Source: Chloroflexota bacterium (GTDB lineage Bacteria > Chloroflexota > Dehalococcoidia > DSTF01 > RBG-16-68-14). From it: a stretch of 35,699 bases of DNA. The notes below the pieces were generated by a model that saw only the letters and a program-made list of their open reading frames with translations, was not told where the DNA came from and did not search any database. Shown here piece by piece: positions 2,203 to 27,320 of the stretch; within the stretch, counting starts at the first letter, position 1; each line of letters begins with the position of its first letter. The position numbers and the translations under genes were made by a program. The stretch lies in contig JADFKB010000017.1 in assembly GCA_022565155.1 (NCBI GenBank), forward strand, positions 1 to 35,699. The letters are read 5' to 3'.

Positions 2203-3345
2203 TTAGCCCTGGGCACGCTGGATCTGCTTGCCTTCTGTCTTGATTGAAGGAGCGACGACCAGCTCCGCCTGCTGGAAGTCCCGAATCGCGCGCGCGCCGC
2301 ACATGCTCATCGCTGTGCGCAGCGCGCCGATCAGGTTCTCCGTGCCATTGGTGCGCGATGTCGGCCCGTGGATCACCTTCTGTAGCGTCGTATCGACACC
2401 GACTGGCACCCGCATGCCGCGCGGCAGGTCGGCGTTCGGCGTCGCCATGCCCCAGTGGTGGCCGCGGCCCGGCGCCTCTTCGCAGGCGGCCAGGATCGAG
2501 CCGAGCATGACGGCGTCCGCGCCAGCGGCAAACGCCTTGCAGAGGTCGCCACCGCTGCGAATGCCGCCGTCCGTGATGATCGGCACGTAGCGGCCACTCT
2601 CGCGGTAGTACTGATCGCGGGCGGCGGCGCAGTCCATCGTCGCCGTCACCTGTGGGACGCCGATGCCGAGCACTTCCCGGGAAGTACAGGCGGAACCGGG
2701 ACCGACGCCGACCTGAACCGCGGCGACGCCGGTCTCCATCAGCTCCTTGCATGCCCCAAAGCTGACGGTGTTACCAACAACCACCGGCATCGGCGCCATC
2801 TGCTCCACCAGCTCTGGGAACGTCAGTCCCTTCTCGCTGTACGAGTTGTGGCGCGCGGTTGTGACGGTCGATTGCACGACGAGCACATCGGCGCCAGCCT
2901 CCTTGGCGATTGGCGCAAAGGCTTTGGTGTTGGCCGGTGTACATGAGACGGCGCAGACAGCATCAGCCGATTTGATCTGCCGTATCCGCTCGCCGATAAG
3001 CTCCGGCTTGATCGGCGTTGCGTAGGCCCGTTGGAGCAGTCCCGTCGATTCCTCTTGTGAGGTAGCGGCGATCTCCTCCAGTACGCCGGCCGGATCCTCG
3101 TAGCGCGTCTGCACTCCCTCGAGGTTGAGGACCGCGAGCCCGCCGAGTTTCGAGAACACGATCGCGAACTCTGGATCAACAACGGCGTCCATTGCGGACG
3201 CCATAATTGGAAGCGCAAACTCAAGCTGGTCGATGCGGAAGGAGACTTCAGTCATCGCCGGATTTACGGTTAAATTGCCCGGTACAATCGCGACCTCATC
3301 GAAACCGTACGCCCGCCGCATCTGCTTCGCCTGTGGGACTGACAT
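2203..3345 (-). CDS. guaB3: IMP dehydrogenase family protein, GuaB3 type
   Basis: The protein is a TIM-barrel of the IMP dehydrogenase/GMP reductase family, expected to act in guanine nucleotide synthesis (IMP to XMP with NAD). The active-site loop reads GPGSACTSREVLG with the catalytic cysteine at residue 220. The phosphate-binding segments ITDGGIRSGGD and ADAVMLGSILA follow. At 380 residues it is about 100 shorter than classical GuaB: after the first barrel segment it continues straight through without the two CBS domains, as in the GuaB3 subfamily of actinobacteria, cyanobacteria and Chloroflexota. GMP reductase is the main alternative, but overall resemblance favours GuaB3. It is monocistronic, with 254 bases upstream before the divergent rsmI. 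Confidence 0.85.
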   Translation of the reverse strand: MSVPQAKQMRRAYGFDEVAIVPGNLTVNPAMTEVSFRIDQLEFALPIMASAMDAVVDPEFAIVFSKLGGLAVLNLEGVQTRYEDPAGVLEEIAATSQEESTGLLQRAYATPIKPELIGERIRQIKSADAVCAVSCTPANTKAFAPIAKEAGADVLVVQSTVTTARHNSYSEKGLTFPELVEQMAPMPVVVGNTVSFGACKELMETGVAAVQVGVGPGSACTSREVLGIGVPQVTATMDCAAARDQYYRESGRYVPIITDGGIRSGGDLCKAFAAGADAVMLGSILAACEEAPGRGHHWGMATPNADLPRGMRVPVGVDTTLQKVIHGPTSRTNGTENLIGALRTAMSMCGARAIRDFQQAELVVAPSIKTEGKQIQRAQG

Positions 3346-6173: not shown

Positions 6174-7030
6174 CTCTCCGCCTCTTCGACAGCCACTCCC
6201 ACGTCCAGCTATCGCAGTTCGACGGCGACCGTGACGCGATGCTCGGACGCGCGCGGGCCGCCGGCGTCACCGGCATGCTCGTCCTCGGCACAGACGTCGC
6301 CTCTTCGCAGGCCGCGATCGCCCTGGCCGAAGCGGAGCCCGGCGTCTATGCGGCGGCGGGCTGCCACCCCCACGACGCCCAGCACATGGACGCCGATTCG
6401 ATGTCGGCGCTCGCCGAGCTGGCGCGCCACCCGCTCGTCGCCGCCGTCGGCGAGATCGGCCTCGACTTCTACCGCAACTTCTCCCCGCACGACAAGCAGA
6501 TCGAGGTGTTCCAGCAGCAGTTGGAGACGGCGGCCGAGGTAGAGAAGCCTATCGCTGTCCACTGCCGCGACGCAAACGATGCGCTCTTTCCCATCATCGA
6601 ATCGTGGTCGCGGAGGCAAGGCGGCCGCCTGCCTGACGGACGGCCGCTCGGCGTCATGCACTACTTCAGCGGCGACACCGAACTGGCGGAGCGATACGTG
6701 GAGTTGGGCTTCGTCATCTCCATCCACTGCTCCGTCACCTATCCAAACGCCAACACACTCCAGGCCGTCGCCCAACAGCTACCGCTCGACGCCATGGTCA
6801 TCGAAACGGACAGCCCGTACGGCCCGCCGCAATCCAGGCGCGGCCAGCGTAACGAGCCGGGCTACCTCAGCGAAGCGGTGGCTGCGGTCGCAGAGCTGCG
6901 CGACGAATCGATAGAGCAGATCGCCGCCGCAACAACCGAGACAGCGCTTCGGCTCTTCTCTCCAGTATCTACAGCGGCAACGAGTCCGGCGCTCGGCAGC
7001 GCCAGAACGGCAGGGAGGAGCGCGCCATGA
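6170..7030 (+). CDS. tatD: TatD-family metal-dependent DNase
   Basis: TatD proteins are TIM-barrel metallohydrolases with 3'-5' exonuclease/DNase activity. The metal-binding signatures are in order: DSHSHVQL near residue 5, GEIGLDFYR around residue 92, HCRDAN, HYFSGD, and ETDSPYGPP with the final catalytic aspartate. I start at the GTG that overlaps the metG stop (GTGA), because GAGGAG lies 11 bases upstream and the protein then begins directly with the first beta strand, giving 286 residues. A longer upstream frame inside metG would add 36 arginine- and alanine-rich residues unlike the family. The stop overlaps the next ATG (ATGA). Confidence 0.92.
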   Translation: MTLRLFDSHSHVQLSQFDGDRDAMLGRARAAGVTGMLVLGTDVASSQAAIALAEAEPGVYAAAGCHPHDAQHMDADSMSALAELARHPLVAAVGEIGLDFYRNFSPHDKQIEVFQQQLETAAEVEKPIAVHCRDANDALFPIIESWSRRQGGRLPDGRPLGVMHYFSGDTELAERYVELGFVISIHCSVTYPNANTLQAVAQQLPLDAMVIETDSPYGPPQSRRGQRNEPGYLSEAVAAVAELRDESIEQIAAATTETALRLFSPVSTAATSPALGSARTAGRSAP

Positions 7031-10342: not shown

Positions 10343-10654
10343 CTACTTGGGCAGATTGATGCCGAACTGGCCGGCGAGACCGGCGAGCTGCTGCGTCTGC
10401 AAACCTTGCACCTTCTGCAGCGCTTCGTTCACGGCGGCGGTGATCAGGTCTTCAAGCATCTCGATGTCGTCCGGGTCGACGACCTCCGGCTCGATCTTTA
10501 GCGACTCCACCTTGAGGCCGCCCGTAACGGCAATGGTGACCGCGCCGCCGCCTGCGCTCCCGTCGACGACCTGCTCCTGCAGCTCCGACTGCGCCTTCAA
10601 CGCCTTCTCCTGCATCTGCTGCAGGCGCGCCATCATGTCGCGGTTCATCCCCAT
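10343..10654 (-). CDS. ybaB: YbaB/EbfC nucleoid-associated DNA-binding protein
   Basis: A small (103 residue) dimeric DNA-binding protein with the family features: an N-terminal amphipathic helix rich in Met/Gln (MMARLQQMQEKALKAQSEL), a central beta segment (VTIAVTGGLKVESLKIEPEVVD) and a C-terminal helix containing LITAAVNEAL. It starts three bases after the stop of the DnaX C-terminal frame. Its Shine-Dalgarno AAGGAGG lies inside that frame, so its translation appears coupled to completion of full-length DnaX. An internal ATG at residue 3 is an alternative start. Confidence 0.93.
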   Translation of the reverse strand: MGMNRDMMARLQQMQEKALKAQSELQEQVVDGSAGGGAVTIAVTGGLKVESLKIEPEVVDPDDIEMLEDLITAAVNEALQKVQGLQTQQLAGLAGQFGINLPK

Positions 10655-10657
10655 CGT

Positions 10658-11401
10658 TTAGCCTCCTTCATCGTCGCTGGAGAGCGCTTCGCCGACTAGC
10701 TCCTCGGCTGCGCGTACCAGGCCGCCGCGTTGCCCAGGACGTTGTACCTCCACGTTCGGATCCAGCACGCAGCGCACCGTCCGGCCGGCGCCAAGCACCT
10801 CGTCCACAGCCTGCTGGAGCGCGCGTACGTTCTCGCCGCCGTCGCCCTCCATGCGGTCCAGCAGCATCGCGTGCCGGAAGCCGAAGACGACCTCGCCGTC
10901 AGACGCTTCGATGATACCACAGCCACTATTCAGCAACGCCCCCGCCCGAAACTCCAATTCTCGCGTCCGATCATAGATCGCCGGCCAGCGCGCGCGCACT
11001 TCATCCAGTCCCTTCGCCGCACCGGCAGGCGCAACCGGTGGCTTCTCGCGCGCATCCGCTGTATTCTGCTCGGGCGGCGCAGGCGCGTCTCCCAGTCCCT
11101 TCGCCGCGCCGGCAGGCGCAACCGGTGGCTTGTCGCGCGCATCCGCCGTACTTTGCTCGGACGGCCTAGGCGCGTCTCCGTTATCCTGCGCGCTCCTCTC
11201 GGGCGCGGCCTTAGAAGCAGCCGGCTGCTTCCGCTTCGCCGGTGGCTTGCTGAATTCAGCAGCCGGTTCGGATCTCTTTGCTGGTGGGCCGGAAGCCGCC
11301 GTGGCCGCCGCCGGTTTGGCCGCCGGCTGGCTCTGGCGCTGTGGTTGCGGACGCGGAGCTGCTGGCGCTGCCGCAGCCGGAGGAGGCCGGGGCTTCCGCA
11401 G
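10658..11401 (-). CDS. dnaX: DnaX linker and C-terminal (tau-specific) domain in a shifted frame
   Basis: This frame is open for 247 codons after an in-frame TAG and lies one base ahead (+1) of the dnaX ATPase frame. It encodes a low-complexity Pro/Ala/Lys linker of about 130 residues, then a globular domain from ARWPAIYDRTRELEF through VVFGFRHAMLLDRMEG to VLDPNVEVQ, which matches the layout of the DnaX domain that follows the linker and binds polymerase alpha. No convincing independent start precedes the linker, and the stop is three bases from ybaB. I read it as the distal part of DnaX, reached by a programmed +1 event or separated by a one-base sequence error. Read through, full-length DnaX would be about 605 residues. 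Confidence 0.7.
   Translation of the reverse strand: MRKPRPPPAAAAPAAPRPQPQRQSQPAAKPAAATAASGPPAKRSEPAAEFSKPPAKRKQPAASKAAPERSAQDNGDAPRPSEQSTADARDKPPVAPAGAAKGLGDAPAPPEQNTADAREKPPVAPAGAAKGLDEVRARWPAIYDRTRELEFRAGALLNSGCGIIEASDGEVVFGFRHAMLLDRMEGDGGENVRALQQAVDEVLGAGRTVRCVLDPNVEVQRPGQRGGLVRAAEELVGEALSSDDEGG
11010..11183 (-). repeat. Two tandem 87-bp repeats in the DnaX linker
   Basis: Two adjacent copies (11010-11096 and 11097-11183) encode a 29-residue unit containing TADAR-KPPVAPAGAAKGL. The copies differ at only a limited number of positions, so the duplication is recent. The unit length is a multiple of three and preserves the linker frame. Confidence 0.85.
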
Positions 11402-12476
11402 CTAAGATCGAGCCCGCCAGCGCAAGCTCTAACGGCAGCGGCGAGAGCGGGTCGGCACGCAGATCGGCCTCGCCGAATGCGCGCAGGGTGGAGACGATCC
11501 GGTCCGTCCCGATCTCGGCGACCAACGCGCGCATCTCAGCGATCTGCTCCTCGCTCCAGCTTTCGCTGAGCTCGGCGCCGGCCTTCGCTAGCAGCAGGCC
11601 GCGCATCTGCGCCACCACCTGCCGCTGGAACTGGCGCAGATCGAGCCCGTCGTCGCGCACCTCGGAGATCACCGCCAGCCCTTCAGCCAGCTCGCCCTTC
11701 AGCGCGTGAGCGGCGAGCGTCACGCTGCGGGCGTCGACGACGAGGCCGAGTCCTTCCCGCACCTGGTCGTCGGCGAGCTTGTTGCCGTACGAATCGACGA
11801 GCTGCTCCAGCAGGTTGATCGCATCGCGCAGGCTGCCCGTAGCGACCCGCGCGATCTGCTTCAGCGCGTCTTCGGAGCACTCGATCCCCTCTTCGCCCGC
11901 GATGAACTTGAGCCGCCCGACGGCGGCTTCGAGCGGAATGCGCCGGAAATCGAACCGCTGGCAGCGCGAGATGACGGTCGCCGGCACCTTATGCGCTTCC
12001 GTCGTCGCCAGCACGAAGATGACGTGGGGCGGCGGCTCTTCCAGCGTCTTCAGCAGCGCGTTGAAGGCCGGCTCCGTCAGCATATGCACCTCGTCAACGA
12101 GGTAGACCTTGTAGGCATCAACGCCGCCCGCGGGAGCGAAGTTCGCCTTCTCGCGCAGGCTGCGGATCTCGTCGATACCGCGATTACTCGCCGCGTCCAA
12201 CTCGATCAGGTCGAGCGCGCGGCCGGCGAGATACGCCTGGCAGCTATCGCAGGCCGCACACGGCTGGCCGTCCCTTAGTTGGCTACAGTTCACCGCCATC
12301 GCTAGCAGCCGGCCCGTCGTCGTCTTGCCGGTGCCGCGCGGGCCCGAGAAGAGGTAGGCGTGCGCCACCTTATCGCCGGCGATGGCGTTGGTCAGGGTGC
12401 GCACTACCATCTCCTGGCCGGCAACTTCGGCTAAGGAGCGCGGACGCCACTTTCGATAGAGAACTTCGCTGCTCAT
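11256..12476 (-). CDS. dnaX: DNA polymerase III gamma/tau subunit, ATPase part (gamma-like product)
   Basis: DnaX is the clamp-loader ATPase. Walker A is G45-PRGTGKT-52, the zinc module uses C64, C73, C76 and C79, Walker B is VYLVDEVHML, and sensor 1 is in FVLATTEAHKVPATVISRCQRF. Domain III follows to about residue 360. The frame then enters low-complexity Ser/Ala/Gly sequence and stops at residue 406, while the tau-type linker and C-terminal domain continue in the +1 frame. The 406-residue product resembles a gamma form. The gene has its own promoter just upstream and heads the dnaX-ybaB-recR-recO operon. Confidence 0.93.
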   Translation of the reverse strand: MSSEVLYRKWRPRSLAEVAGQEMVVRTLTNAIAGDKVAHAYLFSGPRGTGKTTTGRLLAMAVNCSQLRDGQPCAACDSCQAYLAGRALDLIELDAASNRGIDEIRSLREKANFAPAGGVDAYKVYLVDEVHMLTEPAFNALLKTLEEPPPHVIFVLATTEAHKVPATVISRCQRFDFRRIPLEAAVGRLKFIAGEEGIECSEDALKQIARVATGSLRDAINLLEQLVDSYGNKLADDQVREGLGLVVDARSVTLAAHALKGELAEGLAVISEVRDDGLDLRQFQRQVVAQMRGLLLAKAGAELSESWSEEQIAEMRALVAEIGTDRIVSTLRAFGEADLRADPLSPLPLELALAGSILAAEAPASSGCGSASSSASATTAPEPAGGQTGGGHGGFRPTSKEIRTGC

Positions 12477-12565: not shown

Positions 12566-13038
12566 TGCGCCACGTCGATTAGCAGCGCCTCCTCCTTCGA
12601 GCGCATCAGCTTGGCCTCGGCGGCCGTCTCGTGATCGTAGCCCAGCAGGTGGAGGATGCCGTGCGCCAGCAGGTGCGCCAGCTCCACGCCGATGTCATGC
12701 CCCGCCCCCCCGGCCTGCCGCAGCGCGGTCGGAAACGCGATCACGACCTCGCCCAACTGTTCGGCGCTCTCCGGCGGCGTCACGAAGCCCTCCGCGCCAT
12801 CCATCCGAAACGAGAGGACATCGGTCGGCGCGTCGACGTCTCTGTAGCGCTTGTTTAGGTCGCGGACGGTCTCGTCGTCCGTCACCAGCACGCTCAGCTC
12901 GGCCAGCGAATCCATCTGCTCGGATTCAAGGACACGCCGCGCCAGCGCCGCGAGCGCCTGCTCGTCGACGCGAGCCGCGAACGGTGGTTCGACCTGGAGA
13001 GAGATCGTATCGGGCGAGGGCGTCATCGAGTCCAGCAT
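12562..13038 (-). CDS. ybeY: Endoribonuclease YbeY
   Basis: YbeY is a zinc-dependent RNase involved in 16S rRNA 3' end maturation and ribosome quality control. The metal motif is H126-GIL-H130-LLGYD-H136, and LNKRYRDVDAPTDVLSF is the family signature. It is 158 residues long from the first ATG; an ATG at residue 5 is an alternative, and TATGCT just upstream of that codon could act as a -10, making the mRNA leaderless. It lies upstream of dnaX on the same strand, but dnaX has its own promoter between them. Confidence 0.94.
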   Translation of the reverse strand: MLDSMTPSPDTISLQVEPPFAARVDEQALAALARRVLESEQMDSLAELSVLVTDDETVRDLNKRYRDVDAPTDVLSFRMDGAEGFVTPPESAEQLGEVVIAFPTALRQAGGAGHDIGVELAHLLAHGILHLLGYDHETAAEAKLMRSKEEALLIDVAH

Positions 13039-13078
13039 AGCGCATCCGTCACAACCGTTCGTGCGGACGACACACGCC

Positions 13079-13108
13079 TTGTCACCGGCGTTCCGGCCCC
13101 GTTACTAT
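13079..13108 (+). promoter_or_regulatory. Promoter giving a leaderless mRNA for the propeller gene
   Basis: TTGTCA (13079-13084), an 18-base spacer and TACTAT (13103-13108) form a good sigma-70 match. The -10 ends six bases before the ATG, so the normal start point falls on the start codon itself. No Shine-Dalgarno is present. Confidence 0.6.
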
Positions 13109-13114
13109 CCGCAC

Positions 13115-14668
13115 ATGCGCCACATGCCGATACGCTCCGCAGTCATCGCGACTGGCCTCTCGCTCGCGTTCGCCGCACTCCTGTTCACCGACAGCGGCTG
13201 GAGCGGCGCGCCCGCCACGGAGCGGGCCAGCGTCTCCTCAGCCGGGGCCGAGGCCAACGGCCCCAGCTTCGGCCCGGCGCTGAGCGACGACGGCCGCTAC
13301 GTCGTCTTCACGTCGGACGCCACGAACCTGTCGCCCTCAGACACCAACGGCCGCGATGTCTTCGTCCGCGACCGGCAGACCGGCATAACAGAGCTGGTCA
13401 GCATCGCCAGCGACGGCGCCCAGGCGAACCGGCCGGCACTCTTCCCCGCCATCAGCGGCGACGGCCGCTACATCGCCTTCCAGTCCGACGCTGACAACCT
13501 CGTCGCCGACGATACAAACGGCGTCAGCGACATCTTCCTCCACGACCGCCAGACCGGCGTCACCGAGCGCGTCAGCCTCACTAGTGCGGGCGGCCAAGCC
13601 AACGATGATAGCTTCACGCCGTCGGTCAGCGCCGATGGACGTTATGTCACGTTCACCTCCCTCGCAGATAACCTCGTCCCGGGCGATACAAATGACGACA
13701 GTGACGTCTTTCTCTGCGACCTTCAGACCGGCATAGTTGAGCTGCTCAGCGTCAGCACCGCGGGCGAGATCGGCGACGGCCCCAGCGGCGGCCTTGGCGC
13801 GGGAGCCGCGCGCATTAGCTCCGACGGCCGCTACGTTGTCTTCGGCTCGTTCGCCGGCAACCTCGCGCCGGGAGACAGCAACCTGCGCGACGACGTCTTC
13901 CTGCGCGACCGCCAGACCGGCGTCACGGAGCTGCTCAGTGTCAGCACCGCCGACGAACCCGGCAACGGCCACAGCATGTACCCGGACGTGAGCGATGACG
14001 GCCGCTACATCATCTATCACTCCCTGGCGGACAACCTCGTCGCCGGCGACAGCAACGGCCAGAGCGATGTCTTCCTCCGCGACCGCGATACAGGCGCCAC
14101 GACCTTACTCAGCGCCGGCATGGGCGGAACAGCAGCCGGCGGCCTTAGCCACTTCGCCGTCATCAGCGCCGATGGCCGCTTCGCCGCCTATCCGTCCGAT
14201 GCGGCCAACCTCGTTCTCGGCGATACCAACGGCCAGCGCGACATCTTCCTACAGGAGATCGCCAGCGGAGACGTAGAGCGGGTCAACCTCAGCAGCAGCG
14301 GCGGCGAGAGCGCCGGCCCGAGCTCGTCGGTCGCCATCGACGGTAGCGGCAACACCGTCGCTTACCAGTCGTTCGCGGACAACCTCGTCGCAGCGGATTC
14401 CAACGACGCACCGGATATCTTCGTATGGGGAACACCGCTCTTATCGGCCGCTACGCCAACGCCGGCCGCGCCGGCCGGCGACGCGGACTGCAGCAGCGCT
14501 GTCAACGCCATCGACGCCACGCTCATCCTTCAGCTCGTCGCCGGCCTCGTAAGCACGCTCCCCTGCCCTGCTGCCGCCGACGCGAACGCCAGCGGCAACG
14601 TCGACGCAATCGACGCCGCCCTCGTCCTGCAGTTCGTCGCAGGGCTAGTGGAGAGGCTGCCGCCCTAG
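13115..14668 (+). CDS. Secreted seven-bladed PD40/TolB-like propeller with dockerin-like tail
   Basis: The 517-residue protein starts with a signal peptide (hydrophobic core VIATGLSLAFAALLF, cleavage expected near residue 30). Seven repeats of about 57 residues follow, each built on S-DGRYVVF-S-A-NL-DTNG-DVF--D-QTG, as in the WD40-like PD40 repeats of TolB, so a seven-bladed beta propeller is likely. A short Pro/Thr/Ala linker leads to two dockerin-like calcium loops (GDADCSSAVNAIDATLILQ and ADANASGNVDAIDAALVLQ), so it may bind calcium or attach to a cohesin-like partner. The ligand is unknown. An in-frame region further upstream is antisense to ybeY and is not included. It converges with nuoN, two bases apart. 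Confidence 0.85.
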   Translation: MRHMPIRSAVIATGLSLAFAALLFTDSGWSGAPATERASVSSAGAEANGPSFGPALSDDGRYVVFTSDATNLSPSDTNGRDVFVRDRQTGITELVSIASDGAQANRPALFPAISGDGRYIAFQSDADNLVADDTNGVSDIFLHDRQTGVTERVSLTSAGGQANDDSFTPSVSADGRYVTFTSLADNLVPGDTNDDSDVFLCDLQTGIVELLSVSTAGEIGDGPSGGLGAGAARISSDGRYVVFGSFAGNLAPGDSNLRDDVFLRDRQTGVTELLSVSTADEPGNGHSMYPDVSDDGRYIIYHSLADNLVAGDSNGQSDVFLRDRDTGATTLLSAGMGGTAAGGLSHFAVISADGRFAAYPSDAANLVLGDTNGQRDIFLQEIASGDVERVNLSSSGGESAGPSSSVAIDGSGNTVAYQSFADNLVAADSNDAPDIFVWGTPLLSAATPTPAAPAGDADCSSAVNAIDATLILQLVAGLVSTLPCPAAADANASGNVDAIDAALVLQFVAGLVERLPP

Positions 14669-26408: not shown

Positions 26409-27320
26409 CTACGCTGAACCGCCGTCCGCGGCATCGTCCGGCGGCGCTTCCCGCGTGTCGCCGTCCCAGATGCACGGATTGGTGCCTGCCAGCACCTCCT
26501 CCTGCGACGGGATACGGTCGCCGTCGTCGTTATAGACCAGCGGGTCGCAGCCGGGTGTATCGAGTTCATAGGCGTCCCGCAGCAGGTCGCCGTCCGTATC
26601 GGCGGACGAGGCGTCGGTGCCGAGGAACGATTCAAAGCAATCCGTCAGGGTATCGCTATCGCGGTCGGGACAGGCGGCGTAAAACGCGATCTCGTGCCGC
26701 TCGTAACCGGCGCTCGCCAGATCGAGCGCCGCGTAGCGCTCCGAACCCGCCCGCCTCCAGCGGAAGACGGGGCTGTATCGGACATTCGTAGCCTCTGCTA
26801 CCCCGGCATCCGTGGGGGCGAAGAACGCAACACCCATATCCCGATAGTTGTCGTTCGGTTCCGGTGGTGAGGCGATATAACGACTTTCACCGGTCTCCAC
26901 GTGCTGCCAACGGCGAATCTCTTGGAAGCCGACCACAGAGATATCAGAAGCGTAGAAACTGACGCCCACAGGCCCGAAACTGCTCGGCGCTTACGTGTTG
27001 CCAGCCACGTAGATCGCCCTGCCTCGATCGTCGATCCATTCTATGACAGCAACCGCGAGCCGTATTTCGTGGAGGTACACCTGATACTCTTCTCCGTTGC
27101 TGTATGAGATGGATAAAGTTCGGTCTCCATCCTGGCTGTACACGTCGTGTTGAACCGCCGTATAGCAAGCAACCTTGAGCCCGCCCGGTGCCAGCTGGGC
27201 AGAAGACCAACTCGACCAGACCATAAGAGCAGCAACGACCGATGCGAACACGATGCCCGCTCTGTCAGGGTAGTGGAATGCATCTAAGGCCACCCTCACC
27301 AATTCCTTCTCACCAGACAT
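26409..27320 (-). pseudogene. Mosaic, internally deleted paralogue of the secreted propeller family
   Basis: The reading frame begins with a hydrophobic N-terminus (IVFASVVAALMVW) and jumps straight to CYTAVQHDVYSQDGDRT, corresponding to the last part of the propeller in its neighbours, so about 330 residues are missing. It then meets an in-frame TAA at 26991-26993, after YVAGNT, and continues in the same frame through FYASDISVVGFQEIRRW to calcium repeats ending in DDAADGGSA. The half nearer its 5' end resembles the 24194-26254 gene, while the last 321 bases match the 28309-30180 gene at about 97 percent by eye. The C-terminal part could still be made from an internal GTG, but I call it a pseudogene. 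Confidence 0.8.
26421..26741. repeat. 321-bp near-identical repeat, copy 1
   Basis: Aligned by eye with 28372-28692: same length, no gaps and about nine mismatches. It encodes the calcium-repeat tail of the pseudogene. Similarity falls sharply at both borders, as expected for gene conversion or recent recombination. Confidence 0.85.

Follow-up and report, generated by a model that had tools for sequence, protein, structure and literature searches.

A dnaX Gene Split between Two Frames in a Chloroflexota MAG: Probably an Ordinary Gene Broken by a One-Base Error in the Contig

Introduction

Two well-known cases of recoding in dnaX are those of E. coli and T. thermophilus. In both genes tau is encoded in one frame; gamma is made in E. 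coli by a −1 ribosomal frameshift on A_AAA_AAG and in T. thermophilus by slippage on a run of nine A (PMC5009743, PMC3711429). Two-ORF dnaX genes, which need recoding for the synthesis of tau, have also been described: they comprise 17 genes from 12 genera, all with a −1 change at the DNA level, and 12 of the 17 carry runs of 7–10 A (PMC3711429).

The DNA considered here, called the window, is the whole 35,699-nucleotide contig JADFKB010000017.1 of a Chloroflexota bacterium (assembly GCA_022565155.1), which is contig 29 of a MAG with 185 contigs, 2.8 Mb and a completeness of 92.8%. Its dnaX is like the genes of E. coli and T. thermophilus in that a short and a long product are possible. In those genes, however, recoding makes gamma from a one-frame tau, and neither A_AAA_AAG nor the run of nine A is found in the window dnaX. 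With the two-ORF genes it shares an ATPase part and a tau part lying in separate frames, but the described splits are −1 and mostly occur at A7–A10, whereas that of the window is +1, has no slippery run and is not conserved in relatives (PMC3711429).

Both Halves of dnaX Are Genuine Coding Sequence

On the minus strand, frame 0 of dnaX runs from an ATG at 12476 to a TGA at 11258–11256 (406 aa), and a frame one base ahead (+1) is open from 11401 to a TAA at 10660–10658 (247 aa). The contig passes through the break continuously, without N. The original prediction had described this frame change between a 406-codon ATPase frame and a second frame at 11401–10658, with a DnaX-type C-terminal domain next to ybaB, and both the ORFs and the model matches agree with that description (Table 1). 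Frame 0 and the +1 frame share a match to one NCBIfam model of DnaX, PRK14950 (585 positions), with E values of 8e-139 and 8e-13, respectively. Frame 0 has the Walker-type AAA+ clamp-loader ATPase, the lid and domain III expected of a DnaX protein, the other four models listed for it being above cut-off, and the +1 frame has the tau-like C-terminal part that follows the linker and aligns with that of relatives. As in the window, ybaB lies downstream of dnaX in L019, the one relative checked.

Table 1. Features of the dnaX region (window coordinates) and of other frame breaks in the MAG.
Feature	Position	Strand	Evidence or remark
dnaX frame 0 as assembled: AAA+ ATPase, lid, domain III, then out-of-frame tail from ~11390	11256..12476	−	PF13177, PF22608, PF12169, TIGR02397, PRK14950 (positions 1–384)
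dnaX frame +1: Pro/Ala-rich linker, tau-like C-terminal domain	10658..11401	−	PRK14950 positions 366–549
Overlap of both open dnaX frames	11256..11401	−	48 codons; 75% GC; no slippery run
Likeliest interval for a one-base length error	11381..11399	−	composition change-point, ~95% of weight; CCCC 11392–11389 inside
ybaB/EbfC family gene directly 3′ of dnaX, start at 10654	10343..10654	−	same order in L019
Two-copy 87-bp tandem repeat in dnaX linker	11005..11179	−	90% matches; duplicated 29-residue stretch encoded
Cyclase/ATPase-type regulator	L116 (G000:C4) near 6530		frame break at run of five C
Conserved protein	L131 (G000:C19) near 3090		frame break
Kelch-type protein	L133 (G000:C5) near 26690		frame break

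Over the N-terminal part, the window dnaX is 69–80% identical to that of family members. Differences at codon positions 1/2/3 amount to 0.14/0.10/0.41 for the N-terminal part as compared with G002 and to 0.16/0.10/0.41 for the C-terminal part as compared with G001. This third-position-heavy divergence, together with matches to one model in both frames, indicates that neither is a chance ORF and that both are real coding sequence. Purifying selection acts on both halves, the C-terminal part showing no decay, and the gene thus evolved as a single protein of about 605 aa. A candidate for a second DnaX that could serve as a backup in the MAG was rejected, as the match on contig C125 is a 350-aa delta′-like protein. 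A search of a plasmid collection with the dnaX DNA gave partial matches only, in the ATPase region and from unrelated bacteria.

Two further features of the region were observed in passing. Near 10730–10720 the C-terminus of dnaX reads PGQRGGLVRA, as against PGRGGHLVRA or similar in relatives, a gain and a loss of one residue each falling within six codons. On the plus strand, 12851–14668 encodes a TolB/WD40-like repeat protein with two dockerin-like repeats at its end (DADCSSAVNAIDATLILQ..., DANASGNVDAIDAALVLQ...), identified by eye.

Position of the Break

Codon-usage scoring alone placed the break poorly, because the linker is compositionally odd, and every possible switch point was for this reason scored against the residue composition of the linkers of G001, G003, G004 and G005. 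About 95% of the weight fell on the interval given in Table 1, at least 120 bp ahead of the frame-0 stop. The interval includes the four-C run, near which the original prediction had suspected a one-base error, and this suspicion is supported. The per-residue composition score is −2.88 for the frame-0 tail and −2.04 for the +1 frame, the linkers of relatives lying between −2.08 and −2.29. Since the tail scores below the linkers of relatives, it is best read as out-of-frame linker DNA and not as an evolved C-terminus of gamma.

dnaX in Related Genomes and the Assembly of Its Linker

A complete dnaX is present in 10 of 17 order relatives, including the family members G003, G004 and G005. All ten are single frames of 560–674 aa; they share the domain order, the type of linker and the C-terminal domain with the window gene and differ from it in being unbroken. 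In the remaining seven relatives the gene is cut, in G001, G010, G011, G012, G014 and G017 at contig ends and in G002 by N-runs. A dnaX match was also found in 140 of the 148 genomes of a class survey, and in the two surveys, of order and class, any other dnaX frame of less than 460 aa is cut off by a contig end or an N-gap. Within them the split is thus limited to the genome of the window, and relatives with a complete gene have it whole, as is expected of an assembly or sequencing indel; a split and a site conserved in relatives, as expected of programmed recoding, were not found among the ten complete order genes. The comparison with related genes that the original prediction had proposed thus speaks against a programmed gamma/tau split and for a one-base error. 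As a separate observation, three class members (G093, G100 and G117) have one in-frame stop each (TAA, TGA, TAG) inside the dnaX match.

The two nearest relatives, G001 and G002, both have an assembly broken in the linker. In G001, dnaX extends as far as '...LALANSVLATAA' on contig C223, and contig C62 carries the linker together with the C-terminal domain in one frame; in G002, two N-runs lie within the linker, and the reading frame before the second differs from that after it. Contig ends of the 17 order relatives are concentrated at the dnaX linker, in or next to which four were counted versus 0.6 expected (P = 0.003); in the rest of dnaX, two were observed versus 1.5 expected. These expectations are rough, since ends were taken to be evenly distributed and the linker to be 500 bp long, and the statistic relies on few events and rounded contig counts. 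The 87-bp tandem repeat is a possible further hazard for assembly. On contig C62 of G001 (L109), the dnaX part is preceded upstream by unrelated sequence fused to it (EHLPNFHKVAPYTRN...), apparently through a chimeric join.

Frame breaks elsewhere in the MAG were surveyed by tblastn of 0.76 Mb of it versus 0.91 Mb of G003, which left 198 sense-filtered genes for comparison. Besides dnaX, three of these genes are clearly broken in the MAG and whole in G003, each by a single break in a GC-rich stretch (Table 1). About 2% of genes carry a frame break, and this can be taken as the background of the assembly. Two more flagged genes of L133 were dropped, as their breaks near the N-terminus only were wrong start calls in the relative. 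G003 may carry a frame break of its own, in L200.

Weighing of the Explanations

It is probable that the dnaX of the window is an ordinary gene, the frame of which has been broken by a one-base error in the contig and not by a programmed frameshift. The organism would then carry a single-frame dnaX with an expected product of about 605 aa, composed of AAA+ ATPase, lid, domain III, Pro/Ala-rich linker and tau-like C-terminal domain, and a one-base length error at about 11399–11381, where the GC-rich low-complexity linker begins, would split the frame on paper. An error is favoured because both halves are intact and constrained, the genes of relatives are unbroken, the linker fails in assemblies of the order and the MAG has other frame breaks. 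Most likely, judging from sequence comparison, the error belongs to the assembly, the living genome being free of it. By comparison alone, a real one-base change in the lineage would look the same as an assembly error; such an indel or strain variant, real but unprogrammed and recently arisen in some members of the sampled population, is unlikely. The downstream half without decay would fit a very recent event equally well. Loss of the tau C-terminal domain is, however, expected from E. coli to be severely deleterious, and the assembly trouble in the linkers of relatives, together with the other frame breaks of the MAG, makes an error the likelier source. It is also very improbable that the gene has split into a gamma-like protein and a C-terminal domain translated separately from a GTG at 10999, both being made. 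This GTG lies at the domain boundary, is the start of a 113-aa ORF and has AAGGGA upstream, and relatives have Ala at its position; but AAGGGA belongs to the 87-bp repeat unit, the other copy of which is not followed by a start, no such arrangement is seen in relatives, and the +1 frame retains, from the GTG back to about 11390, a linker composition like that of relatives, for which a separate domain would have no need.

The original prediction had offered a novel programmed event, giving gamma-like and tau-like products, as the alternative to a one-base error near the four-C run, and of these two options the second is supported. If the +1 shift were programmed, by frameshifting or by slippage in transcription, normal translation would make a 406-aa gamma and recoding would make tau. 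A two-ORF dnaX with recoded tau is a described architecture, and in the window the overlap spans 48 codons and both frames are coding; nevertheless, the described cases are −1, mostly with A7–A10 (PMC3711429). The overlap (11401–11256) was searched for an A_AAA_AAG-type heptamer or other slippery run, and none was present. It holds no A/T run of four: as had been predicted, no A-run exceeds three (AAA at 11317–11315 and 11279–11277) and the longest homopolymer is CCCC at 11392–11389. A CCC codon is relevant to slippage of tRNA-Pro, and the C run, read as GCC|CCG in frame 0, does not supply one. The programmed frameshift of prfB has the same +1 direction, but it requires CTT and a stop codon in its shift site (CTTTGAC), and both are lacking from the break in the window dnaX. 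CTTTGAC is absent from the whole window, with no prfB-type shift site at the frame-0 stop, although the prfB of the same genome, which served as a positive control, has it where its conserved part begins. The likely switch lies at least 120 bp ahead of the stop, the RNA folding of the overlap is unremarkable (z = −0.72), and the split is not shared by any relative in the order and class surveys. A programmed origin is accordingly doubtful in the extreme, and the idea of separate gamma-like and tau-like products is left unsupported. An undescribed +1 dnaX frameshift, free of stop codon and slippery run and making tau in this one lineage, is hardly to be expected.

Conclusions

Were the break both real and programmed, it would represent a +1 route to tau without counterpart among the dnaX cases considered here (PMC3711429, PMC5009743). 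The value of the present finding lies in a practical caution on split dnaX genes in MAGs: as the dnaX linker is a recurrent point of assembly failure in this GC-rich order, a split dnaX in MAGs without reads is no proof of gamma/tau recoding.
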